Shown: positions 7,490 through 16,862 of the stretch, in pieces
How positions within the stretch are numbered: position 1 is the stretch's first letter
How the letters are laid out: every line of letters begins with the position of its first letter
Source of the DNA: Desulfobacteraceae bacterium Eth-SRB1
Lineage (GTDB): Bacteria > Desulfobacterota > Desulfobacteria > Desulfobacterales > ETH-SRB1
NCBI GenBank assembly: GCA_004193555.1
Contig: RPGP01000040.1
Coordinates: 749,127 to 813,126, forward strand
Direction of reading: 5' to 3'
Length of the DNA: 64,000 nt
Program-made: the position numbers and the translations under genes
Notes under the pieces: model-generated
What the model was told of the DNA's origin: nothing
Databases searched by the model: none
The model's input: only the letters and a program-made list of their open reading frames with translations

Positions 7490-9238
7490 ATGAAAGAAAA
7501 TAATGAAAGAATACCGAACCCTAAAGAACTTGAAAAGGAAATCAGCGAGTTCCTGACCAAAAAATTCGGAGATAATGTCAAAGTCGTATCTCCAATAGTT
7601 ATCCCTCAAGCAGTTGTTTCAGAAAAAGAGGCGACCCGCCCCCCAAAAAAAGAAAAGAAACTGAATTTTGATTTAAAGCCCGAAGATCTTATCTCCTATC
7701 TTGATCAATACATCGTAAAACAGGCTAATGCAAAAACAATTTTATCCACGAAAATATGCACCCACTTCAACCGGATTAAACATGCTGAGGCCTCTCCTGA
7801 TAAAATCGATGAAATAGTCGGCAGCATCAAGAACAATGTCCTCATGATCGGCCCAACCGGAGTCGGCAAGACTTATATGATTAAATTGATCGCCCAGAAA
7901 ATCGGAGTTCCGTTTGTTAAGGGTGATGCCACTAAATTCAGCGAAACAGGATATGTCGGCGGAGATGTAGAGGATCTGGTTAGGGATCTGGTCAGGGAAG
8001 CTGATGACGATATTGAACTTGCTCAATACGGTATTATATACATTGATGAACTTGATAAAATTGCATCAAGCCGCAATCTGATAGGCGCAGATGTATCAAG
8101 AACCGGTGTCCAGCGCGCCCTGCTTAAACCGATGGAAGAAACCGATGTAGAGCTGAAAGTTCCTCACGATCCTATTTCAATGCTCCAGGAAATTGAACGG
8201 TTTCGTAAAACCGGCAAACGGGACAAACGAACCGTAAACACAAAAAACATACTTTTTATTATGAGTGGGGCATTTGCCGATCTGGATCAAATTATTAACA
8301 AACGGATTTCTGAACAGGGAATAGGTTTTGGCGCACATATTATAAGTTCCCATGAACGGCTCAACATTCTTCAACAGGTATTTCCTGAAGATCTGATAAA
8401 ATTCGGATTTGAATCGGAATTTGTAGGCAGACTGCCTGTAAAAGCTGTTTTCGAAAGCCTTGCCGAAGATGACCTTTTCGAGATTCTAAAAAATCCCAAC
8501 AATCCAATCATTCTTGGGAAAAAACTCGATTTCGCCGCCTATGGCATAGACATCAAGTTTGATTACAAAGCGCTTCGTATTTTAGCAAAACGCGCCTATA
8601 AGGAAAGCACAGGTGCAAGAGGCTTGGTCAGCGCCTTTGAAACAGCGCTGCTTCTGTTTGAGAAAAAACTGCCGTCAACCGATATCAAAAAATTCTCTGT
8701 AACCGTTTCTGTTGTAGAAAATCCGGGAAAAGCGCTTGAAACTATTTTGTCTCCATCAAACGAAAATGAATTAAATGAAACCTTTGACAGGCTATTACGT
8801 GACGAAAAAGAATTTATCAAAAAATATGTTCAATCAAACAGGAAAAACTTAAGTGAAAAATATAATCTGACCCTGACGCCGGCACGCACAGCGATTGTTG
8901 CCACTTTTTACTGCAAACACATAATGGATATCGGAAAAGTTTTACAAAAAATCAAATTCTATTATGATGAAATCAAAAAGATTGAACTGTATTTTTTTAA
9001 AAATGACGACATAAATATCGTTATGGAAGAAGATGCGGTTGACTTTATTATTGAACAGTTTATAAAGTCAGGCATTAAACTCGAAGCCTTTTATAAACAG
9101 TTGATAGTCGATTTTGAATTAGGGCTAAAACTCATCCGGGGAAAAACCGGGAAAAACTATTTTAAAATTACAAAACAGGCGCTGATGGGGCCCGAGTCTT
9201 TTATAAGTAATCTTATTAAAGATGAACTTCAAAACTGA
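7490..9238 (+). CDS. ClpX-like AAA+ ATPase
   Basis: AAA+ protein of 582 aa resembling ClpX/HslU unfoldases: Walker A GPTGVGKT at residues 121-128, Walker B IIYIDELDK at 182-190, and the ClpX-type stretch SETGYVGGDVEDLVRDL between them. RTGVQRALLKPMEET is the usual post-Walker-B segment. Unlike ClpX it has no N-terminal four-cysteine zinc finger, and it has a C-terminal extension of about 200 residues after the ATPase module. A ClpX paralogue with altered adaptor or substrate recognition is the likeliest reading. No protease gene is adjacent. A long hairpin at 9341-9382 lies downstream. Confidence 0.78.
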   Translation: MKENNERIPNPKELEKEISEFLTKKFGDNVKVVSPIVIPQAVVSEKEATRPPKKEKKLNFDLKPEDLISYLDQYIVKQANAKTILSTKICTHFNRIKHAEASPDKIDEIVGSIKNNVLMIGPTGVGKTYMIKLIAQKIGVPFVKGDATKFSETGYVGGDVEDLVRDLVREADDDIELAQYGIIYIDELDKIASSRNLIGADVSRTGVQRALLKPMEETDVELKVPHDPISMLQEIERFRKTGKRDKRTVNTKNILFIMSGAFADLDQIINKRISEQGIGFGAHIISSHERLNILQQVFPEDLIKFGFESEFVGRLPVKAVFESLAEDDLFEILKNPNNPIILGKKLDFAAYGIDIKFDYKALRILAKRAYKESTGARGLVSAFETALLLFEKKLPSTDIKKFSVTVSVVENPGKALETILSPSNENELNETFDRLLRDEKEFIKKYVQSNRKNLSEKYNLTLTPARTAIVATFYCKHIMDIGKVLQKIKFYYDEIKKIELYFFKNDDINIVMEEDAVDFIIEQFIKSGIKLEAFYKQLIVDFELGLKLIRGKTGKNYFKITKQALMGPESFISNLIKDELQN

Positions 9239-9466: not shown

Positions 9467-10645
9467 ATGATCGGTATATCAAAATTATATTGCGGGACTG
9501 TAGAGCCCTCCGATGCACTTCGCTATGGGCGCAAGTCGTCAAAACTGCCTTCACACCTGCTTCAATTTTCCAGCGACAAACGGCCGGTTGTTGTATGGAA
9601 CATCACAAGAAAATGTAATCTAAAGTGTGTCCATTGTTATGCGCATGCCAAGAATATTTCTTTTGAAAATGAACTTTCCACCAAAGAGGGCAAGAAGCTG
9701 TTAGATGATCTTGCGCAATTCGGCGTGCCTGTAATCCTGTTTTCCGGCGGAGAACCTACGATCAGGAAGGATCTTCCCGAGCTTGCGGCACATGCTGTCG
9801 AAAAAGGGATGCGAGCCGTCATATCTACAAACGGCACCCTTATATCACAAAAAATGGCCCGGATACTTAAAGAAATCGGGCTCTCATATGTGGGCATAAG
9901 CATTGATGGAATGGAAGAAATAAACGATCGTTTCAGGGGCGTTAATGGGGCATATAAATCGGCTTTAGAAGGAATTGAAAACTGTAAGGAAGCGGGAATA
10001 AAAGTTGGGCTTCGTTTTACGATAAATAAACTCAATGCCGCTGAAATGCCGGCCATATTCAAGCTCCTTGAAGAAATGGATATTCCAAGGGCATGCTTTT
10101 ATCACCTTGTTTATGCGGGACGCGGTTCACAACTGGTAAATGATGATTTGTCTCACGAGGAAACAAGGTATTATGTCGATATGATCATGGATCTTACAAA
10201 AAAGCTCCATGATAAAGGAAAACCCAAAGAAATATTAACTGTTGATAATCATGCTGATGGTCCGTACCTTTATTTAAGGCTTTTAAAGGAAGATCCGGCG
10301 CGCGCCAAAGACGTTCTTGAACTTCTAAAAATGAACGAAGGAAACAGTTCAGGCAGAGGCATCGGGTGCATAAGCTGGGATGGCGAAGTTTATGCTGATC
10401 AGTTCTGGCGTCATCACAGTTTTGGCAATATAAAGGACAGGCCATTTTCCGAAATCTGGACAGACACATCAGAACCGTTAATGAAAAAACTGAAAGAGAA
10501 AAAAAAGTATATTAATGGAAGATGCTCAACATGCCGCTGGCTTGACGTTTGCGCCGGCAACTTCAGGGTTCGGGCTGAAGCCGTAACCGGTGATGTCTGG
10601 GCGCCTGACCCGGCATGTTATCTTACAGATGAAGAGATCTCCTGA
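9467..10645 (+). CDS. ahbC: 12,18-didecarboxysiroheme deacetylase (radical SAM, AhbC)
   Basis: Radical SAM enzyme of 392 aa in the siroheme-dependent heme pathway. It removes two acetate side chains from 12,18-didecarboxysiroheme to give Fe-coproporphyrin III. The SAM-cluster cysteines are C50, C54 and C57 (CNLKCVHC). The N-terminal block MIGISKLYCGTVEPSDALRY is as I recall it for AhbC, and a cysteine-rich C-terminal region (CSTCRWLDVC and a last Cys near residue 384) fits an auxiliary cluster. The ATG follows AAGGATT. hemB and ahbD follow on the same strand. The AhbC/AhbD assignment rests on N-terminal recall plus gene order. Confidence 0.87.
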   Translation: MIGISKLYCGTVEPSDALRYGRKSSKLPSHLLQFSSDKRPVVVWNITRKCNLKCVHCYAHAKNISFENELSTKEGKKLLDDLAQFGVPVILFSGGEPTIRKDLPELAAHAVEKGMRAVISTNGTLISQKMARILKEIGLSYVGISIDGMEEINDRFRGVNGAYKSALEGIENCKEAGIKVGLRFTINKLNAAEMPAIFKLLEEMDIPRACFYHLVYAGRGSQLVNDDLSHEETRYYVDMIMDLTKKLHDKGKPKEILTVDNHADGPYLYLRLLKEDPARAKDVLELLKMNEGNSSGRGIGCISWDGEVYADQFWRHHSFGNIKDRPFSEIWTDTSEPLMKKLKEKKKYINGRCSTCRWLDVCAGNFRVRAEAVTGDVWAPDPACYLTDEEIS

Positions 10646-10654
10646 ATAAAAAGG

Positions 10655-10803
10655 TAACCGTTTACGGTTTACAGTTATCGGTTCACGGTTGAAAAAAACA
10701 GAAGGTAGAGGAGAATTATGGAGTCCTCATCCAAAATGCTTTAATTGTTGCATAGTTCATTGAAAAAACTGTGAACTGTGAACCGACAACCGTGAACTGT
10801 TAC
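10655..10803. repeat. inverted repeats of a GTTTACGGTTTACAGTT family
   Basis: The ahbC-hemB gap holds ACCGTTTACGGTTTACAG then GGTTCACGGTTG, and further on inverted versions (GTGAACTGTGAACCG, CAACCGTGAACTGTTAC). A related piece is at 11849-11875 before ahbD. These look like dispersed palindromic repeats rather than an operator. Confidence 0.55.
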
Positions 10804-10820
10804 ATAAAAAGGAACAAGTT

Positions 10821-11798
10821 ATGTTATTTCCAGATTACAGGCCGAGGCGTCTGCGTCAGAATGAGGCTTTTCGCCGTATGATACGTGAAACGGAAATTTC
10901 CGTGAACGACCTGATTCTGCCGCTTTTTGCAATTAACGGCAAAGGGGTTAAAAACCCTATACCATCCATGCCGGGGCAGTATCAGTTATCAACAGACAAT
11001 CTAATTAAAACAGCCCAAAAGGCTTTTGATCTTGGCATTCCGGCTATTATGCTTTTCGGGATACCGGATAAAAAGGATCCTCTTGGAACAAGCGCTTATG
11101 CAAAAAACGGCATCGCACAAAAAGCAACAAGCGCTCTGAAAAATAAAATTCCTGATCTTATTGTTATAACCGATGTATGCTTGTGCCAGTATACGGATCA
11201 CGGTCACTGCGGCATTGTAAAAAACAATATAATAGATAATGATGAGTCGCTTGATCTTCTGGCCCTCACAGCCCTTTCCCACGCAAAAGCAGGCGCTGAC
11301 ATGGTAGCCCCTTCCGACATGATGGACGGCCGTGTTGCTGAAATCCGCAATATTCTGGATGAAAACAGTTTTAGCAATATTCCAATAATGTCATATTCAG
11401 CGAAGTATTGCTCGGCCTACTATGGGCCGTTTCGTGAGGCAGCAGACTCAGCCCCGAAATTCGGGGATCGCAGAACATATCAGATGGACCCTGCAAACGC
11501 TATTGAAGCAATCAGGGAAGTTACAATGGATATTGAAGAAGGAGCGGATATAATAATGATAAAACCGGCTCTGCCCTATCTCGATATTATCTGCCGTATC
11601 CGTGATGAAATTGATCTTCCTGTTGCCGCATATAATGTCAGCGGCGAATATGCGATGATCAAGGCTGCCGATAAAATGGGATGGATAGACGGCAAAAGGG
11701 TCATGATGGAAACCCTCACCTCTATAAAACGGGCCGGTGCCGACATGATACTGACATATTTTGCAATCGAAGCTGCAAAAGAGCTGAATGGACATTAG
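10821..11798 (+). CDS. hemB: Porphobilinogen synthase (delta-aminolevulinic acid dehydratase)
   Basis: Condenses two 5-aminolevulinate molecules to porphobilinogen, the first pyrrole of tetrapyrrole synthesis; 325 aa, the normal length. The Schiff-base lysine regions are visible as MSYSAKY and IMIKPALPYLD, and metal-site residues as DVCLCQYTDHGHCG. AAGGAAC precedes the ATG. It sits between ahbC and ahbD, so an early tetrapyrrole step is located with the end of the Ahb pathway, an arrangement I know from sulfate reducers. Confidence 0.96.
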   Translation: MLFPDYRPRRLRQNEAFRRMIRETEISVNDLILPLFAINGKGVKNPIPSMPGQYQLSTDNLIKTAQKAFDLGIPAIMLFGIPDKKDPLGTSAYAKNGIAQKATSALKNKIPDLIVITDVCLCQYTDHGHCGIVKNNIIDNDESLDLLALTALSHAKAGADMVAPSDMMDGRVAEIRNILDENSFSNIPIMSYSAKYCSAYYGPFREAADSAPKFGDRRTYQMDPANAIEAIREVTMDIEEGADIIMIKPALPYLDIICRIRDEIDLPVAAYNVSGEYAMIKAADKMGWIDGKRVMMETLTSIKRAGADMILTYFAIEAAKELNGH

Positions 11799-11886
11799 TC
11801 TTTGGTTAAATGAATAAATATAAAATCACCTTATAAATAAAAAATAACGTAACAGTTTACGGTTTACAGTTATAACATAACTTATT

Positions 11887-13011
11887 ATGACAAAAAAAAT
11901 AAATCATACATCGACCCCAAAGCCTCATCCACATGGTGAACATAAAGAAGCATCTTTGCGCCTTGTTGCATGGGAAACCACACGTAACTGCAATCTTTCC
12001 TGCAAGCACTGCCGCGCTTCTGCAACTAAAGGCCCTTATACCGGAGAACTTGACACTCAGGCTTCTATCCATCTTCTGGATCAGATAGCAAAGCTTGGGA
12101 AACCGATAGTTATTCTTACCGGTGGAGAACCACTCATGCGACCCGACATCTTTGACATTGCAGCTTACGGCACGGATAAGGGGCTCAGGATGGTTATGGC
12201 TCCCAATGGAACTCTGATGACAAAAGCTTATGCCAGACAGATGGCAGATTCAGGAATCAAAAGGATAAGCATCAGCATTGACGGAGCGACAAAAGAAAGT
12301 CACGACAGCTTCAGGGGAGTTGACGGAGCTTTCGAAGGTGCGCTTCGCGGCATCCGCCTGGCAAAGGAGGCTGGAATTGAATTCCAGATTAACACCACCA
12401 TCACAAAAACAAACCTTGACCAGATCCCTTTAATACAGGAATTAGCCCTAAAGTTTGGCGCGGTTGCCCACCACATTTTTCTTCTCGTCCCAACCGGCCG
12501 CGGTAAATATATTGTAGACCAGGAAATATCATCAGAAGAATATGAACGCACTTTAAACTGGTTCTATGACCAGAGAGAAAAAACCACTTTGCAGTTAAAA
12601 GCTACATGCGCTCCCCACTACTACCGCATACTCAGACAGAGGGCAAAAAAAGAAGGCAAGCAGGTTACATTCAAAACACACGGTCTGGATGCCGTTACAA
12701 GGGGATGCCTTGGAGGCACAGGCTTTTGTTTTATTTCACATACAGGTATTGTACAGCCCTGCGGGTTTCTCCAGATAAATTGCGGTGATGTCACAAAGAC
12801 ACCCTTTGCCGACATCTGGAATAATTCAGAAACCTTTTTAGCCTTACGGGATTTTAACAGATTAAAAGGAAAATGCGGGAAGTGTGAATTCAAAAAAGTA
12901 TGTGGTGGCTGCAGGGCAAGAGCTTATGAAGCAACCGGAGACTATCTGGCTGAAGAGCCTCTTTGCAGTTATCAGCCCGGCTCTAAACCGTCCGCCCAAA
13001 AACCAGTTTAA
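11887..13011 (+). CDS. ahbD: Heme b synthase (radical SAM, AhbD)
   Basis: Radical SAM enzyme of 374 aa that decarboxylates the two propionates of Fe-coproporphyrin III to vinyls, giving heme b. The SAM cluster cysteines are C35, C39 and C42 (CNLSCKHC). LRLVAWETTR precedes them, as in AhbD. The C-terminal SPASM-like region (CGKCEFKKVCGGCRARA ... C) would bind an auxiliary 4Fe-4S cluster. No clear ribosome-binding site precedes the ATG. It is last of the ahbC-hemB-ahbD group, and an inverted repeat bounding a foreign islet begins 110 nt downstream. Confidence 0.87.
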   Translation: MTKKINHTSTPKPHPHGEHKEASLRLVAWETTRNCNLSCKHCRASATKGPYTGELDTQASIHLLDQIAKLGKPIVILTGGEPLMRPDIFDIAAYGTDKGLRMVMAPNGTLMTKAYARQMADSGIKRISISIDGATKESHDSFRGVDGAFEGALRGIRLAKEAGIEFQINTTITKTNLDQIPLIQELALKFGAVAHHIFLLVPTGRGKYIVDQEISSEEYERTLNWFYDQREKTTLQLKATCAPHYYRILRQRAKKEGKQVTFKTHGLDAVTRGCLGGTGFCFISHTGIVQPCGFLQINCGDVTKTPFADIWNNSETFLALRDFNRLKGKCGKCEFKKVCGGCRARAYEATGDYLAEEPLCSYQPGSKPSAQKPV

Positions 13012-13122
13012 AAAAAGAGCACCGTATTAGGCGTTTTCCAAAAGCCGGCGCATTACGTATGATGAAGCGTACTCGGCGCATCTATTCTGGCTTGATGCGG
13101 CATGACTTCATTCCCACAAACA

Positions 13123-13163
13123 AATGAAAAGAGAAACGCCTAAATTCAACCCCGTCCCCCTTT
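13123..13163. repeat. left arm of a 40-bp inverted repeat bounding the archaeal-like islet
   Basis: AATGAAAAGAGAAACGCC followed by TAAATTCAACCCCGTCCCCC. The reverse complement is found at 15162-15201 with one mismatch and one inserted base. The enclosed segment is about 2.0 kb. Confidence 0.85.
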
Positions 13164-13190
13164 AAAATACAAATAAAATTAAATCTCTTT

Positions 13191-13475
13191 TCATATAATC
13201 CTTATTTCCTCATTTAAAATTTGTTTTTTTAATCTGGGATGAATTGTTTTATAGCTGACAAAATCTACTTTGTTTTTTAATTCATCTTCTATTTCCAATT
13301 TAATACCTGCAAAATCCAACAGGCTCATATTTTCTGTGGGCTTAATTAATATATCAATGTCGCTGTTTTCGTTTTGTTCGCCCCTTGCATAACTTCCAAA
13401 TATTCCCGCTTTAGTTACTTTATTTTTCTTCAAAATTCGGACAATTTGCTTTTTCATTTCTTCAAAATTTCTCAT
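13191..13475 (-). CDS. Minimal nucleotidyltransferase (MntA/MNT-type), archaeal-looking
   Basis: Protein of 94 aa with the polymerase-beta-type motif GIFGSYARGEQNENSDIDI (G-S-x9-D-x-D). MNT proteins are often antitoxins of HEPN/MNT pairs that AMPylate a HEPN toxin. No HEPN gene is present on either side, so it is an orphan. An AT box about 25 nt before the ATG and no ribosome-binding site suggest a leaderless archaeal promoter. It lies inside the inverted-repeat islet with two other archaeal-looking genes. Confidence 0.75.
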   Translation of the reverse strand: MRNFEEMKKQIVRILKKNKVTKAGIFGSYARGEQNENSDIDILIKPTENMSLLDFAGIKLEIEDELKNKVDFVSYKTIHPRLKKQILNEEIRII

Positions 13476-13494
13476 AATTAAATTAGTGATTGAG

Positions 13495-13505
13495 AATTTA
13501 AATAA
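13495..13505 (-). promoter_or_regulatory. TATA-like box for the MNT gene
   Basis: TTATTTAAATT on the minus strand, 20-30 nt upstream of the ATG at 13475. There is no Shine-Dalgarno sequence between box and start. The position fits an archaeal TATA element with a leaderless transcript. Confidence 0.5.
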
Positions 13506-13641
13506 TTAACTGTTTGGCAAGACATTAAAAGATTCGGATTAGCAACTATTGAATGGAAAATTAAAATAATGAACAGGTTATAAGATTCAGGTCGTCCGGG
13601 CCTTAAAGCAAACGGGCAATGTCGGGACAGGTTCGGGAAGT

Positions 13642-13648
13642 TTTATAT
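13642..13648 (+). promoter_or_regulatory. TATA-like box for the 13671 gene
   Basis: TTTATATA type box 23-29 nt before the ATG at 13671, again without a ribosome-binding site. Confidence 0.5.
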
Positions 13649-13670
13649 ACCTTATCTTGTTTTATTAAAT

Positions 13671-14144
13671 ATGAAAAAAGAGGAGCAAGAGAAACATTTC
13701 GGCTGGAAATGGTTTGTAATTTTGGGAGTGTTGGCAATTTTAATTTTGGGAATTTGGGTCATGTTTTTTAGTTATGCAAAATGCGAAACATGGAGTTGTT
13801 TTAATAATCATCTGGAGAATTGTGACAGAGTAAAATTTGTCGGCGGGACGAGTATGATTTTTGAATATGTCGTTAAAGGAATTTCCGACGGGGAGTGCGA
13901 AGTTGATGTGCAGTTGTTACAGGGCGAGTTAAACAATAAAGAATTGGCGGAGCTGGAAATGCGGAAAATGACCTGCATGCTGCCGGAGGGTGTTGTGATG
14001 ATTCCGGAAAGCGATATTGGAAACTGCCACGGGATGCTGAAAGAAGGGTTGCAGGATTTGGTAATTGAAAAGTTGCATAGTTATCTTGTTCAGAATCTGG
14101 GGCGGATTAATCTGGAAGTGCTGGGCGTGCCTGAGGCGGATTAA
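13671..14144 (+). CDS. Single-pass membrane protein, DPANN-archaea-like, unknown function
   Basis: Protein of 157 aa. After a charged N-terminus (residues 1-11) comes one strong transmembrane segment (about 12-34), then an outside or lumenal domain with six cysteines, several likely to pair. I do not recognise a named domain. The style (short charged start, one helix, acidic Cys-containing exterior) resembles small surface proteins of DPANN archaea. Codon use (frequent GGGxx and GAG, few AAA runs) differs from the neighbouring bacterial genes. A TATA-like box lies at -29 to -23. Function unknown. Confidence 0.6.
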   Translation: MKKEEQEKHFGWKWFVILGVLAILILGIWVMFFSYAKCETWSCFNNHLENCDRVKFVGGTSMIFEYVVKGISDGECEVDVQLLQGELNNKELAELEMRKMTCMLPEGVVMIPESDIGNCHGMLKEGLQDLVIEKLHSYLVQNLGRINLEVLGVPEAD

Positions 14145-14164
14145 AATTAGACATTGGGAGTAAC

Positions 14165-14170
14165 TTTAAA
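14165..14170 (+). promoter_or_regulatory. TATA-like box for the 14196 gene
   Basis: TTTAAA within CTTTAAAAG, 26-31 nt before the ATG at 14196. There is no ribosome-binding site. Confidence 0.4.
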
Positions 14171-14195
14171 AGTTTCATGTTCTTATTAATTACAG

Positions 14196-15230
14196 ATGAA
14201 AAATAAAAAAGCAGGCAGAGAGGTGTCTTCGCGTTTTTCCCGCGGGGTCGGGAAGAGAGGGTGGATGCTGATTATGGAGGCGACGATTGCGATGATAATT
14301 ATAAGCGGGGCATTGATTGCGGTTTATTCGCAACAGACAGACAGGGGAGTTGATCCGGTTGAATATTATGACAGTTTACAGGGGCAGATTTTGGCGGATG
14401 TTTCGGGAAGAAGTGATTTACGGCTGAATGTTTTAAATGTTGAAGAAGAGGATTTCGGGGACGGGAATTTTACTGCACTGAATGATTTTATCGGGGGGAA
14501 AATTCCGGAGGGGTTTGGCTATTCAATCAGGGTGTGCAGACTTGGCGACGATGCAGACCATTGCAATATGAGGGCACCGGTTTTTATTGCGACGATGGAC
14601 GAGGATATTTACGTTGAGGAAATTATAGTTTCTGCCGAAGTGGGCGAGGGGACAGACGCGATTTATAATCCGAAGAAGCTGAGACTATTTGTCTGGGAGG
14701 GGAAAAGTGTTGATATGGATTGCGAGAATAATTGTTCAGTTGAGGGGATGATTTTCAGCTGTTCAGAGGACAGGACGCAGGTTTTAGAGGGAGAGTGTGT
14801 AGGTTCTGATGATAGTTTTTGTTTAGAATGGGAAGAAGGTGATACTGAGGTAATTGAAACATGTGAGGATGGTTATGAGTGCGTTGACGGGTTGGGGATA
14901 TGCGGGGAGGTTTCTAATACTTTTAATCTGACTTGTGAGAAAGAGGAGCCTACTTATATGGGATGCGTGGATGATGATGATGATGCAACTGTGTGTGCTG
15001 GAGGTCGGAGACAAGAGACTGGGGGATGTGATCCTGGTTTGTTTGGTTATAATGGAGATTATACGACTTGTTGGTATATGGTGGAAGAGATTGTAGAGTG
15101 TTCCGAGAATCCTGAATGTCCGTCGTCGGAATGGACGATAAAAAAGAAAGAAAGGAAGACAAAAGGGGACGGGGTTGAATTTAGGCGTTTCTTTTTTCAT
15201 TGTTTGGGGAATCTATGGGACATTCCTTAG
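14196..15230 (+). CDS. Pilin-like / surface Cys-rich protein, DPANN-archaea-like, 3' end replaced
   Basis: Protein of 344 aa. A basic leader precedes a hydrophobic helix (LIMEATIAMIIISGALIAVY, about residues 25-44) in the style of archaeal type IV pilin-like proteins. An extracellular domain follows with many cysteines (C-x3-C, C-E, C-V-D-G patterns, about residues 170-300). The last 23 or so residues are translated from the right arm of the bounding inverted repeat (15162-15201), so the native C-terminus is lost and the stop comes from flanking DNA. No assigned function. Base use is unlike its bacterial neighbours. Confidence 0.6.
   Translation: MKNKKAGREVSSRFSRGVGKRGWMLIMEATIAMIIISGALIAVYSQQTDRGVDPVEYYDSLQGQILADVSGRSDLRLNVLNVEEEDFGDGNFTALNDFIGGKIPEGFGYSIRVCRLGDDADHCNMRAPVFIATMDEDIYVEEIIVSAEVGEGTDAIYNPKKLRLFVWEGKSVDMDCENNCSVEGMIFSCSEDRTQVLEGECVGSDDSFCLEWEEGDTEVIETCEDGYECVDGLGICGEVSNTFNLTCEKEEPTYMGCVDDDDDATVCAGGRRQETGGCDPGLFGYNGDYTTCWYMVEEIVECSENPECPSSEWTIKKKERKTKGDGVEFRRFFFHCLGNLWDIP
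15162..15201. repeat. right arm of the inverted repeat bounding the archaeal-like islet
   Basis: AAAGGGGACGGGGTTGAA followed by TTTAGGCGTTTCTTTTTTCATT, the reverse complement of 13123-13163. The GGGGACGGGGTTGAATTTAGG type of sequence is one I associate with RAYT-linked palindromes. No transposase gene lies inside the pair. Confidence 0.8.
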
Positions 15231-15459
15231 TTTATAAGTTCATATCGTCAAGAAATGAATATTGATTTTCTTTTGCAATTTTCTTCCTAATCTTTACACA
15301 AACTCCGAAAAAAACAGGTGGAGGGGAGATTTAGGGGGATTCAAGGAAAGATTGTTGGGTTACAATAGTTTTTCGGGCATATTGTTGACAGAATGGCATA
15401 TTCGGGGCATATTCTGCAGTTCCCGAAAGTTCCCTAATGATATTTGTGACGAAATCTTA

Positions 15460-15554: not shown

Positions 15555-16862
15555 ATGTTTGAGCAGGAAATTGAACGAAAAATCGGAGACTTCAGAGAGC
15601 TGGGCTTTCCGGAGTTTATCCCGCGCGAGAGCCGTCTTCAGATGGCTGACAATATGGTATCTACTGTTATTGGTGCGCGACGAGCCGGAAAGAGCTATCG
15701 TACGATTCAGGCAGCATCTGAGCTGATAAAGCGCAAAGCGATTAAATCTATCAATCATATATGCCTTTTGGACTTTGACAATCCTGTTCTTTCATCCATA
15801 AAGGCTGCCGATCTTAAAATCATCCAAAATACATTTTTAAAACTAAGCCCTGATGTTGAGCTCAAAACGCCTTTGCTTTTTGTTCTTGACGAAATACACA
15901 AAATTTCCGGATGGGAGGAATATGTGATTGATCTGTCACGAAATCCCAACTGGAAGGTGATAGTTACAGGATCATCTTCAAAACTGCTAAAATACGATAT
16001 TGCCACCGAGCTTCGCGGCAAAGCTGTTTCTTCGACCTTGTATCCATTGAGTTTCTCCGAGTTTCTTAGATTTAAGAATTTCAAGCATGATTATAAATCG
16101 ACAAAAGGACAGGCTGAGGCAAGGCGGATGTTTGACGAATTCATGAAATGGGGAGGCTATCCTGCTATTGTTAATACCGAAGAATATACAAAGGAAGTAC
16201 TGCTAAGAGAATACTTCGACACAATGATTCTTAAAGATATCATACAGCGATATAACGTAAGCAAACCAAAACAGTGCATTTATCTTTATAATTATTTGAT
16301 GTCTAATATCGGCAAAGCGCACACGCTCCAGAGCAGTTACCGCTATTTAAAGCAGGCAGGATTTAAAACAAGTCGGGATACTATCAGGGAATATATAAAT
16401 TGGGCCAAAGATTCCTGGCTGTTGTTTACCGTGCCGATTTTTTCAGACTCCCTTAAAGATCAGGAAAGAAACTATAAAAAAGTTTATGCAATTGACTGGG
16501 CGCTTGCAAATAAAAACAGCCTTATCTGGGATGGTTCTTATTCCAAGGCGCTTGAAAATATGGTTTTTATCCATCTGTATCAATGGTGGCCAAGGGTCCA
16601 TTACTATTTAACCCGCACTAAACGGCAGGAAGTAGATTTCATTGCGATAGACAGCAAAGGGCATCCCGCCATGGCAGTACAGGTTTGTATGGATATCAGC
16701 CATGAAGAAACCATAAAAAGAGAACTGGATGCAATTATTGCAACCGCGAAATATTTTAAAATCAAGGAAAATTTAATACTGACCTACAATCAGGAAAAAG
16801 ACTTTCAGGCAGAAGGCATTACAGTCAGGGCAAAGCCGGTATGGAAATGGCTGCTGGAGTAA
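15555..16862 (+). CDS. AAA_14 ATPase with DUF4143 domain
   Basis: Predicted ATPase of 435 aa: an N-terminal AAA_14 module with Walker A-type GARRAGKSY (about residues 39-47), a Walker B-like LLFVLDEIHK (about 107-116) and the GSSSKLL segment, then a C-terminal DUF4143 domain ending in a nuclease-like QEVDFIAID region. Such proteins are common, often single, and lack an agreed function; links to DNA and mobile elements are frequently suggested. A remnant of a second DUF4143 protein lies just downstream on the opposite strand. Confidence 0.85.
   Translation: MFEQEIERKIGDFRELGFPEFIPRESRLQMADNMVSTVIGARRAGKSYRTIQAASELIKRKAIKSINHICLLDFDNPVLSSIKAADLKIIQNTFLKLSPDVELKTPLLFVLDEIHKISGWEEYVIDLSRNPNWKVIVTGSSSKLLKYDIATELRGKAVSSTLYPLSFSEFLRFKNFKHDYKSTKGQAEARRMFDEFMKWGGYPAIVNTEEYTKEVLLREYFDTMILKDIIQRYNVSKPKQCIYLYNYLMSNIGKAHTLQSSYRYLKQAGFKTSRDTIREYINWAKDSWLLFTVPIFSDSLKDQERNYKKVYAIDWALANKNSLIWDGSYSKALENMVFIHLYQWWPRVHYYLTRTKRQEVDFIAIDSKGHPAMAVQVCMDISHEETIKRELDAIIATAKYFKIKENLILTYNQEKDFQAEGITVRAKPVWKWLLE

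Follow-up and report, generated by a model that had tools for sequence, protein, structure and literature searches.

Within the window, a stretch of 64,000 nucleotides from a Desulfobacteraceae bacterium, three small genes of archaeal appearance stand between the arms of an inverted repeat. How did they come to be there? The earlier note had placed the three genes within this segment, where the open reading frames are indeed as it described them, and had proposed either an archaeon-to-bacterium transfer carried by the repeat pair or an assembly chimera. The reading that we prefer, and that we regard as reasonably probable, is that the segment between the arms (Table 1) is DNA of a DPANN archaeon, that it entered the bacterium recently, and that it now forms part of the bacterial chromosome. 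Judged from sequence relationships, the donor would be best explained as an unsequenced relative of the clade with genomes G303, G500, G394 and G490, in an archaeal phylum that we label Nanoarchaeota after the titles of records L038 and L046.

Table 1. Coordinates of the islet, its genes and its borders in the window, and of the related islet on a second contig (G000 is the bacterium's own genome)
Feature	Position	Strand	Basis or remark
Left flank, radical SAM heme b synthase (AhbD)	11887..13011	+	NCBIfam TIGR04545, 577 bits (cut-off 500)
Left arm, internally deleted TIRYT/RAYT-type element	13028..13163	-	13058-13163 aligned to copies; 13028-13057 by eye
Islet, probably archaeal	13164..15160	.	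edges set by repeat ends; MNT part not proven archaeal
MNT-type nucleotidyltransferase (Polbeta domain), 94 aa	13191..13475	-	Pfam PF18765, E 1.4e-19
TATA-type promoter box TTTTATATACC of P157	13641..13651	+	20-30 nt before the ATG
P157, one-helix cysteine protein of DPANN archaea, 157 aa	13671..14144	+	archaeal homologue counts
Pilin-like cysteine-rich protein	14196..15160, ORF continuing into the repeat to 15230	+	3' part lost at right arm
Right arm, 5' end of a further degraded member of the left arm's family	15161..15319	+	alignment
Right flank, AAA_14/DUF4143 ATPase	15555..16862	+	Pfam
Second islet region	L027:5460-9406 = G000:C1:1189459-1193405		beside an AbiEii gene
Second pilin copy	G000:C1:1190811-1191737		867/927 nt identical (93.5%) to the window copy

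The near-perfect inverted repeat of about 40 bp is real. A repeat search of the window measured arms of 41 nt (13123-13163 and 15161-15201) that are 95% complementary, with 1997 nt between them, and an exact 16-nt inverted repeat appeared in 1 of 200 mononucleotide shuffles of the same 3.5 kb, which makes a chance origin of the arms unlikely. The left repeat exceeds 40 bp, since other copies align along 13058-13163, and the arms are not confined to this segment: the search for them elsewhere in the genome, which the earlier note had suggested, returned 11 matches, two being the window arms and nine lying further off. The right arm has 148 of 162 aligned positions in common with the copy at G000:C1:395863. 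The 5' terminus of the left arm (AAAGGGGGACGGGG...) points toward the islet, so that both arm termini face inward. The aligned copies have AAAGGGGGACGGGGTTGAATTTAGGCGTTTC in common, and several run on into the start of a RAYT-like protein (MPRQARIDAPGALHH...). One copy, read through, encodes a 139-aa deletion derivative in which a RAYT-like start is followed by a C-terminal HTH that matches Bac_DnaA_C below the cut-off; Y1_Tnp has no match in this derivative, and elsewhere in the genome it has 14 matches, 13 of them over the cut-off.

Passages of two papers (PMC3733652; PMC6006769) describe the ends of TIRYT and RAYT subclass 2.1 elements as often carrying GGGGWSAS. The arm family resembles these elements, as they are set out there, in its GGGG-rich end motif (GGGGACGG, one mismatch) and in the RAYT-like protein start just inside the end; it differs from TIRYT/TIRtron elements in that all of the copies that were read are deletion derivatives. 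Of an inverted repeat, no more than the inner part is left, by eye, at the far end of the left copy. Nine family members of the bacterium contain parts of the left element (G001-G004, G008, G009, G011, G012 and G014), with a similar remnant about 100 nt after the same heme gene in G014. None of 200 archaeal genomes from G303's order gave a match to the arm sequence, in a search that had no archaeal positive control; among bacterial relatives, a query that overlaps this element did give matches. From the nine further genome matches, the pieces in family members and the archaeal count, the arms belong to the bacterium, and by sequence comparison they are native ends of its degraded tyrosine-transposase (TIRYT/RAYT-like) repeat family. 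At L031:7800-7864, the terminus of the element occurs in nested copies (GAACAAAGGGGGACG repeated) that look as if an element had inserted into its own end after GAAC.

Could two such ends have acted together as a composite mobile unit, transposing the archaeal cargo between them? We consider this improbable. The cargo is bracketed by inverted ends with both termini inward, and by eye 7 of the 11 copies keeping their 5' end are preceded by ..AC, a pattern that the right-arm junction fits (AGAC). However, the left-arm junction does not fit it, the 150 nt following each arm-family end show no intact transposase gene, and the one copy followed further is the 139-aa derivative. The genome also has no second copy of the whole unit, and the second islet has borders of another kind, a RAYT fragment on the left and a palindromic repeat on the right. 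The claim that the segment was carried by a repeat pair therefore falls away: the arms are transposon-end repeats of the host, as far as their relatives indicate, and as a dedicated carrier they are rejected by their nine further matches and by the different bounds of the second islet.

We now turn to the genes between the arms, beginning with P157. Homologues of this protein occur in 82 of 371 genomes of the phylum of G058, which holds a Nanoarchaeota-titled record, and, with the cut-off at E<=1e-10, in 84 of the 180 genomes searched in G303's order, within that Nanoarchaeota-titled phylum; the best identities are 69% (G303) and 68% (G500). The earlier note had named best hits to Desulfobacterota as the result that would speak against an archaeal origin. 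Run against 395 genomes of the bacterium's own phylum, P157 was found in nine, namely the bacterium's own genome and eight with weak matches (E 6e-4 to 0.01) that cover 31-69 N-terminal residues in the helix region, which leaves the archaeal origin standing. In a tree, the islet copy stands beside G500 with support 85/86. The trees of P157 and of the pilin, many of whose forks are weak, hold archaeal and islet rows only, there being no bacterial rows to include, and consequently they show nearest neighbours rather than domain.

The promoter of P157 points the same way. Its TATATA lies 21+2 nt ahead of the ATG, and the box and its distance are identical in the orthologues of G303 and G394; by a loose count, 21 of 33 orthologues have TTTATA or TATATA at any position in the stretch that precedes the hit. 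The other two genes were likewise said to have TATA-like boxes without a Shine-Dalgarno sequence, and this was borne out, with conservation in orthologues shown for P157 only: alongside the P157 box TTTTATATACC, the box AACTTTAAAAG precedes the pilin ATG and TTATTTAAATTC the MNT ATG, and no Shine-Dalgarno sequence was seen by eye before the three islet ATGs. The gene dnaG stands directly upstream of P157 in 25 of 33 archaeal loci, and in the other eight none was found in a short locus; this pairing is conserved in most archaeal loci examined (L083, L170, L061 and others). The ORF list of the window has no dnaG in the islet. With the dnaG-P157 pairing and a pilus-type pilin cluster in archaea, the order MNT-P157-pilin is not the one seen there, which counts against the reading that we prefer.

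The pilin-like protein has a similar distribution. At E<=0.01, homologues were found in 162 of 200 genomes of G303's order, many of them weak and confined to the N-terminal 160 residues, and among 58 bacterial relatives it was found in one, the bacterium's own genome. Identities reach 48% with G303 (154 aa), 54% with G394 (149 aa) and 43% with G490 (324 aa), and in the pilin tree both islet pilins group together (100/99). The islet protein shares with the pilin-like proteins of DPANN ArlJ-type clusters (G303, G490) an N-terminal hydrophobic stretch, GW..I.EAT.A. In G303, the gene stands between ArlJ-like membrane proteins upstream and a HerA-like ATPase downstream, all of these being weak family matches below cut-offs, and by eye the neighbourhood in G490 resembles it; in archaea, this protein probably serves an ArlJ-type system as a minor pilin. 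Unlike these clusters with their ArlJ-like and HerA-like partners, the islet copies have no such neighbours among the ORFs listed. The DPANN cluster, as observed at L122:2913-7530 and L120:6246-12686, comprises ArlJ-like proteins, two pilin-like proteins and the HerA-like ATPase, for which CedD, a DNA-translocating ATPase, scored best, though weakly (43 bits against a cut-off of 600); the cluster is perhaps a pilus for DNA exchange.

The nucleotidyltransferase does not decide the origin. A pattern scan of genome_contigs gave 61% identity to a Nanoarchaeota-titled record (L038) and 56% to Aequorivita, of the Bacteroidota (L037). Like the MntA-type antitoxins, it is a minimal nucleotidyltransferase, but its 53.2 bits to NF047752 fall below the curated cut-off of 60, with its Pfam Polbeta match above threshold; Pfam found no HEPN match in the other two islet proteins. 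The DPANN-type origin that had been proposed for all three genes thus holds for P157 and the pilin, by the distribution of their homologues and, for P157, by its promoter as well, and stays undecided for the nucleotidyltransferase. It is hardly credible that these are native bacterial genes that merely look archaeal, or that they went from bacterium to archaeon: MNT genes occur in many bacteria, with the one bacterial match at 56%, whereas P157 and the pilin are widespread in an archaeal order and the other bacteria searched gave weak helix-region matches only, and the P157 TATA box is conserved in its orthologues. Other collections yielded nothing useful, whether for pilin alignment patterns in genome_contigs and viral_contigs, the pilin in phages, P157 in viral_contigs and plasmids, or the exact arm pattern in viral_contigs. 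Because these look-ups relied on a handful of exact peptide or DNA patterns, or on collections with few archaea, their null results carry little weight.

The composition of the islet, which the earlier note had wished to see compared, sets it apart from the other parts of the genome that were read by GC skew, and by an archaeal Markov score only when combined with skew. We read 1.01 Mb of the bacterium's own genome (about 30%) as 54 stretches, 14 of them being the window or stretches picked around repeats and homologues, and 40 (800 kb) roughly evenly spaced on contigs C40 and C1. Between about 13.5 and 15.5 kb the GC skew is +0.43 to +0.49, whereas |skew| averages 0.09 (sd 0.07) in the 1.01 Mb. 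The Markov score alone does not separate the islets, other windows scoring equally high; among 3894 1-kb windows, a positive score together with |skew| >0.35 is found in the two islets only, and L150:1001-2500 comes near this profile with a positive score and a |skew| of 0.33. At the DNA level, the islet shows only patches of 64-84% identity to nine archaeal loci.

The second islet lies on contig C1 (1.25 Mb), a different contig from that of the window (C40, 1.33 Mb). Its pilin copy is 5'-truncated against the RAYT fragment and complete at the 3' end; the window copy is the reverse case, complete at the 5' end and cut at the 3' end by the right arm. That the right arm truncates the last gene was a sound observation, for the second copy (in L027) continues about 160 codons further to a stop. 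The two copies differ at 13, 13 and 34 sites by codon position, with 24 amino-acid changes in 308 codons (NG86 dN 0.040, dS 0.186, dN/dS 0.21). Because dN/dS is 0.21, these alignments suggest that most of the divergence took place while the gene was functional, with archaea as the simplest setting for it. Either two archaeal alleles came in, or a single fragment brought a tandem pair of paralogues that was later split. A later copy made inside the bacterium was also considered as the source of the second islet and is doubted on the same ratio, though gene conversion may have played a part. Gene 4 of the second islet, on the opposite strand from the pilin and preceded by a TATAAAA box, had no match in the archaeal loci compared; by eye it is apparently frameshifted at two places, which seems to be decay, or else sequencing error. 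Also by eye, the edges of this islet, at about 6.80 and 8.90 kb of L027, are a mid-gene RAYT fragment on the left and, on the right, a palindromic repeat of about 160 bp (CCTAAATTGAGCAATTTTTGG..., L027 ~8893-9060). An inverted copy of the palindrome lies 2 kb off (L027 ~11131-11230), with relatives in G001.

Do these islets reflect transfer, or an assembly chimera in which DNA of a co-occurring DPANN archaeon was misjoined at repeats into two bacterial contigs? Transfer in one form or another we hold to be likely and a chimera unlikely, although it is the strongest rival; transfer is favoured on the sequence features of the junctions. The assembly consists of 52 contigs and is probably a MAG. 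A 10-N gap at L161:14780-14789 (G000:C1:732780-732789) has the same 46-nt sequence on both sides and looks like a scaffold join that duplicated sequence, so the contigs seem to be scaffolded. By eye, each of the four junctions falls at or inside a repeat element; the islet genes of the window and the promoter of P157 show little decay, and their composition is not ameliorated; pilin versions at 93.5% identity would fit two archaeal strains in the sample, and the pilin is absent from the 57 other bacterial relatives. Each of these points would suit a chimera. However, if a De Bruijn assembler was used, a false join would need shared k-mers, and the usual final k-mers are longer than 28-46 nt. 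Within the 1.01 Mb, the longest exact repeats at the junctions are 32 and 37 nt in the window and 28 and 46 nt at the second islet. With the arms in none of the 200 archaeal genomes, there is no known shared sequence for misjoining. No N lies at either islet or at the junctions, four false joins would be needed in two megabase contigs, and gene 4 has its apparent decay-like frameshifts, if these are not sequencing errors. By a rough estimate, two pieces of about 2 kb from a genome of about 1 Mb would have one gene in common by chance in about 0.4% of cases, a coincidence explained by neither simple transfer nor simple chimera. If the islets were chimeric after all, they would warn that interdomain inserts can sit even in megabase contigs.

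The bacterial flanks bear on how the islet's ends arose. On the left, the window is syntenic with the same-genus genome G001 at 89% DNA identity up to 13018, where synteny ends, just before the left element; the left junction thus coincides with a rearrangement breakpoint. Downstream of the heme gene come sppA and rpsA (names by eye), immediately next to it in G001 and beyond other genes in G014; in the bacterium these two genes stand at C1:915350-918168. The arm query had no match at that sppA side, so a simple recombination between two repeat copies is not shown. On the right, the ATPase gene had no match in the syntenic stretch of G001 (L088).

On the transfer reading that we prefer, the bacterium may have acquired fragments of archaeal DNA and built them in by illegitimate repair, while breaks and rearrangements associated with repeats may have given the islet its present ends. 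The divergence of the two pilin copies under purifying selection would mean that two archaeal versions went in. In the bacterium, the cargo is probably inert, because its promoters are archaeal, its pilin is truncated and no partner genes for a pilus were noticed by eye among the ORFs listed around both islets. Its function there is most likely none, the islet amounting to an archaeal promoter, a truncated secreted pilin-like protein and a lone nucleotidyltransferase. As in other interdomain transfers from archaea to bacteria, archaeal genes stand in bacterial sequence with atypical composition and patchy presence; here they differ in being DPANN genes outside metabolism, for one of which an archaeal promoter of its own is shown, and in forming two fragments that overlap in one gene and are seemingly functionless in the host.

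A bolder version, which we think doubtful, holds that DNA flows recurrently from a DPANN archaeon in contact with the bacterium: a surface-pilin locus would have entered twice from different alleles and been captured at breaks in TIRYT/RAYT ends, marking the bacterium as the archaeon's partner (on DPANN-bacterium contact see the 2024 paper PMC11291902). If true, DPANN DNA that twice came fresh into a bacterial chromosome would be physical evidence of close contact and a testable lead to host range, and worn-out RAYT-family repeats would mark points where foreign DNA stays.

Other features were seen around the islet and in the wider genome. Genes of the alternative heme pathway stand in a row at 9467-13011 of the window (ahbC - hemB - ahbD, by NCBIfam), and an Rfam scan of the window found three tRNAs only. 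On contig C29, a CRISPR-like array with the repeat CGGTTCATCCCCACGCCTGTGGGGAACAT runs in L013 from ~1890 to ~2500 (G000:C29 from ~317.2 kb; far end unread), directly after a cut-off IS200-type transposase gene.
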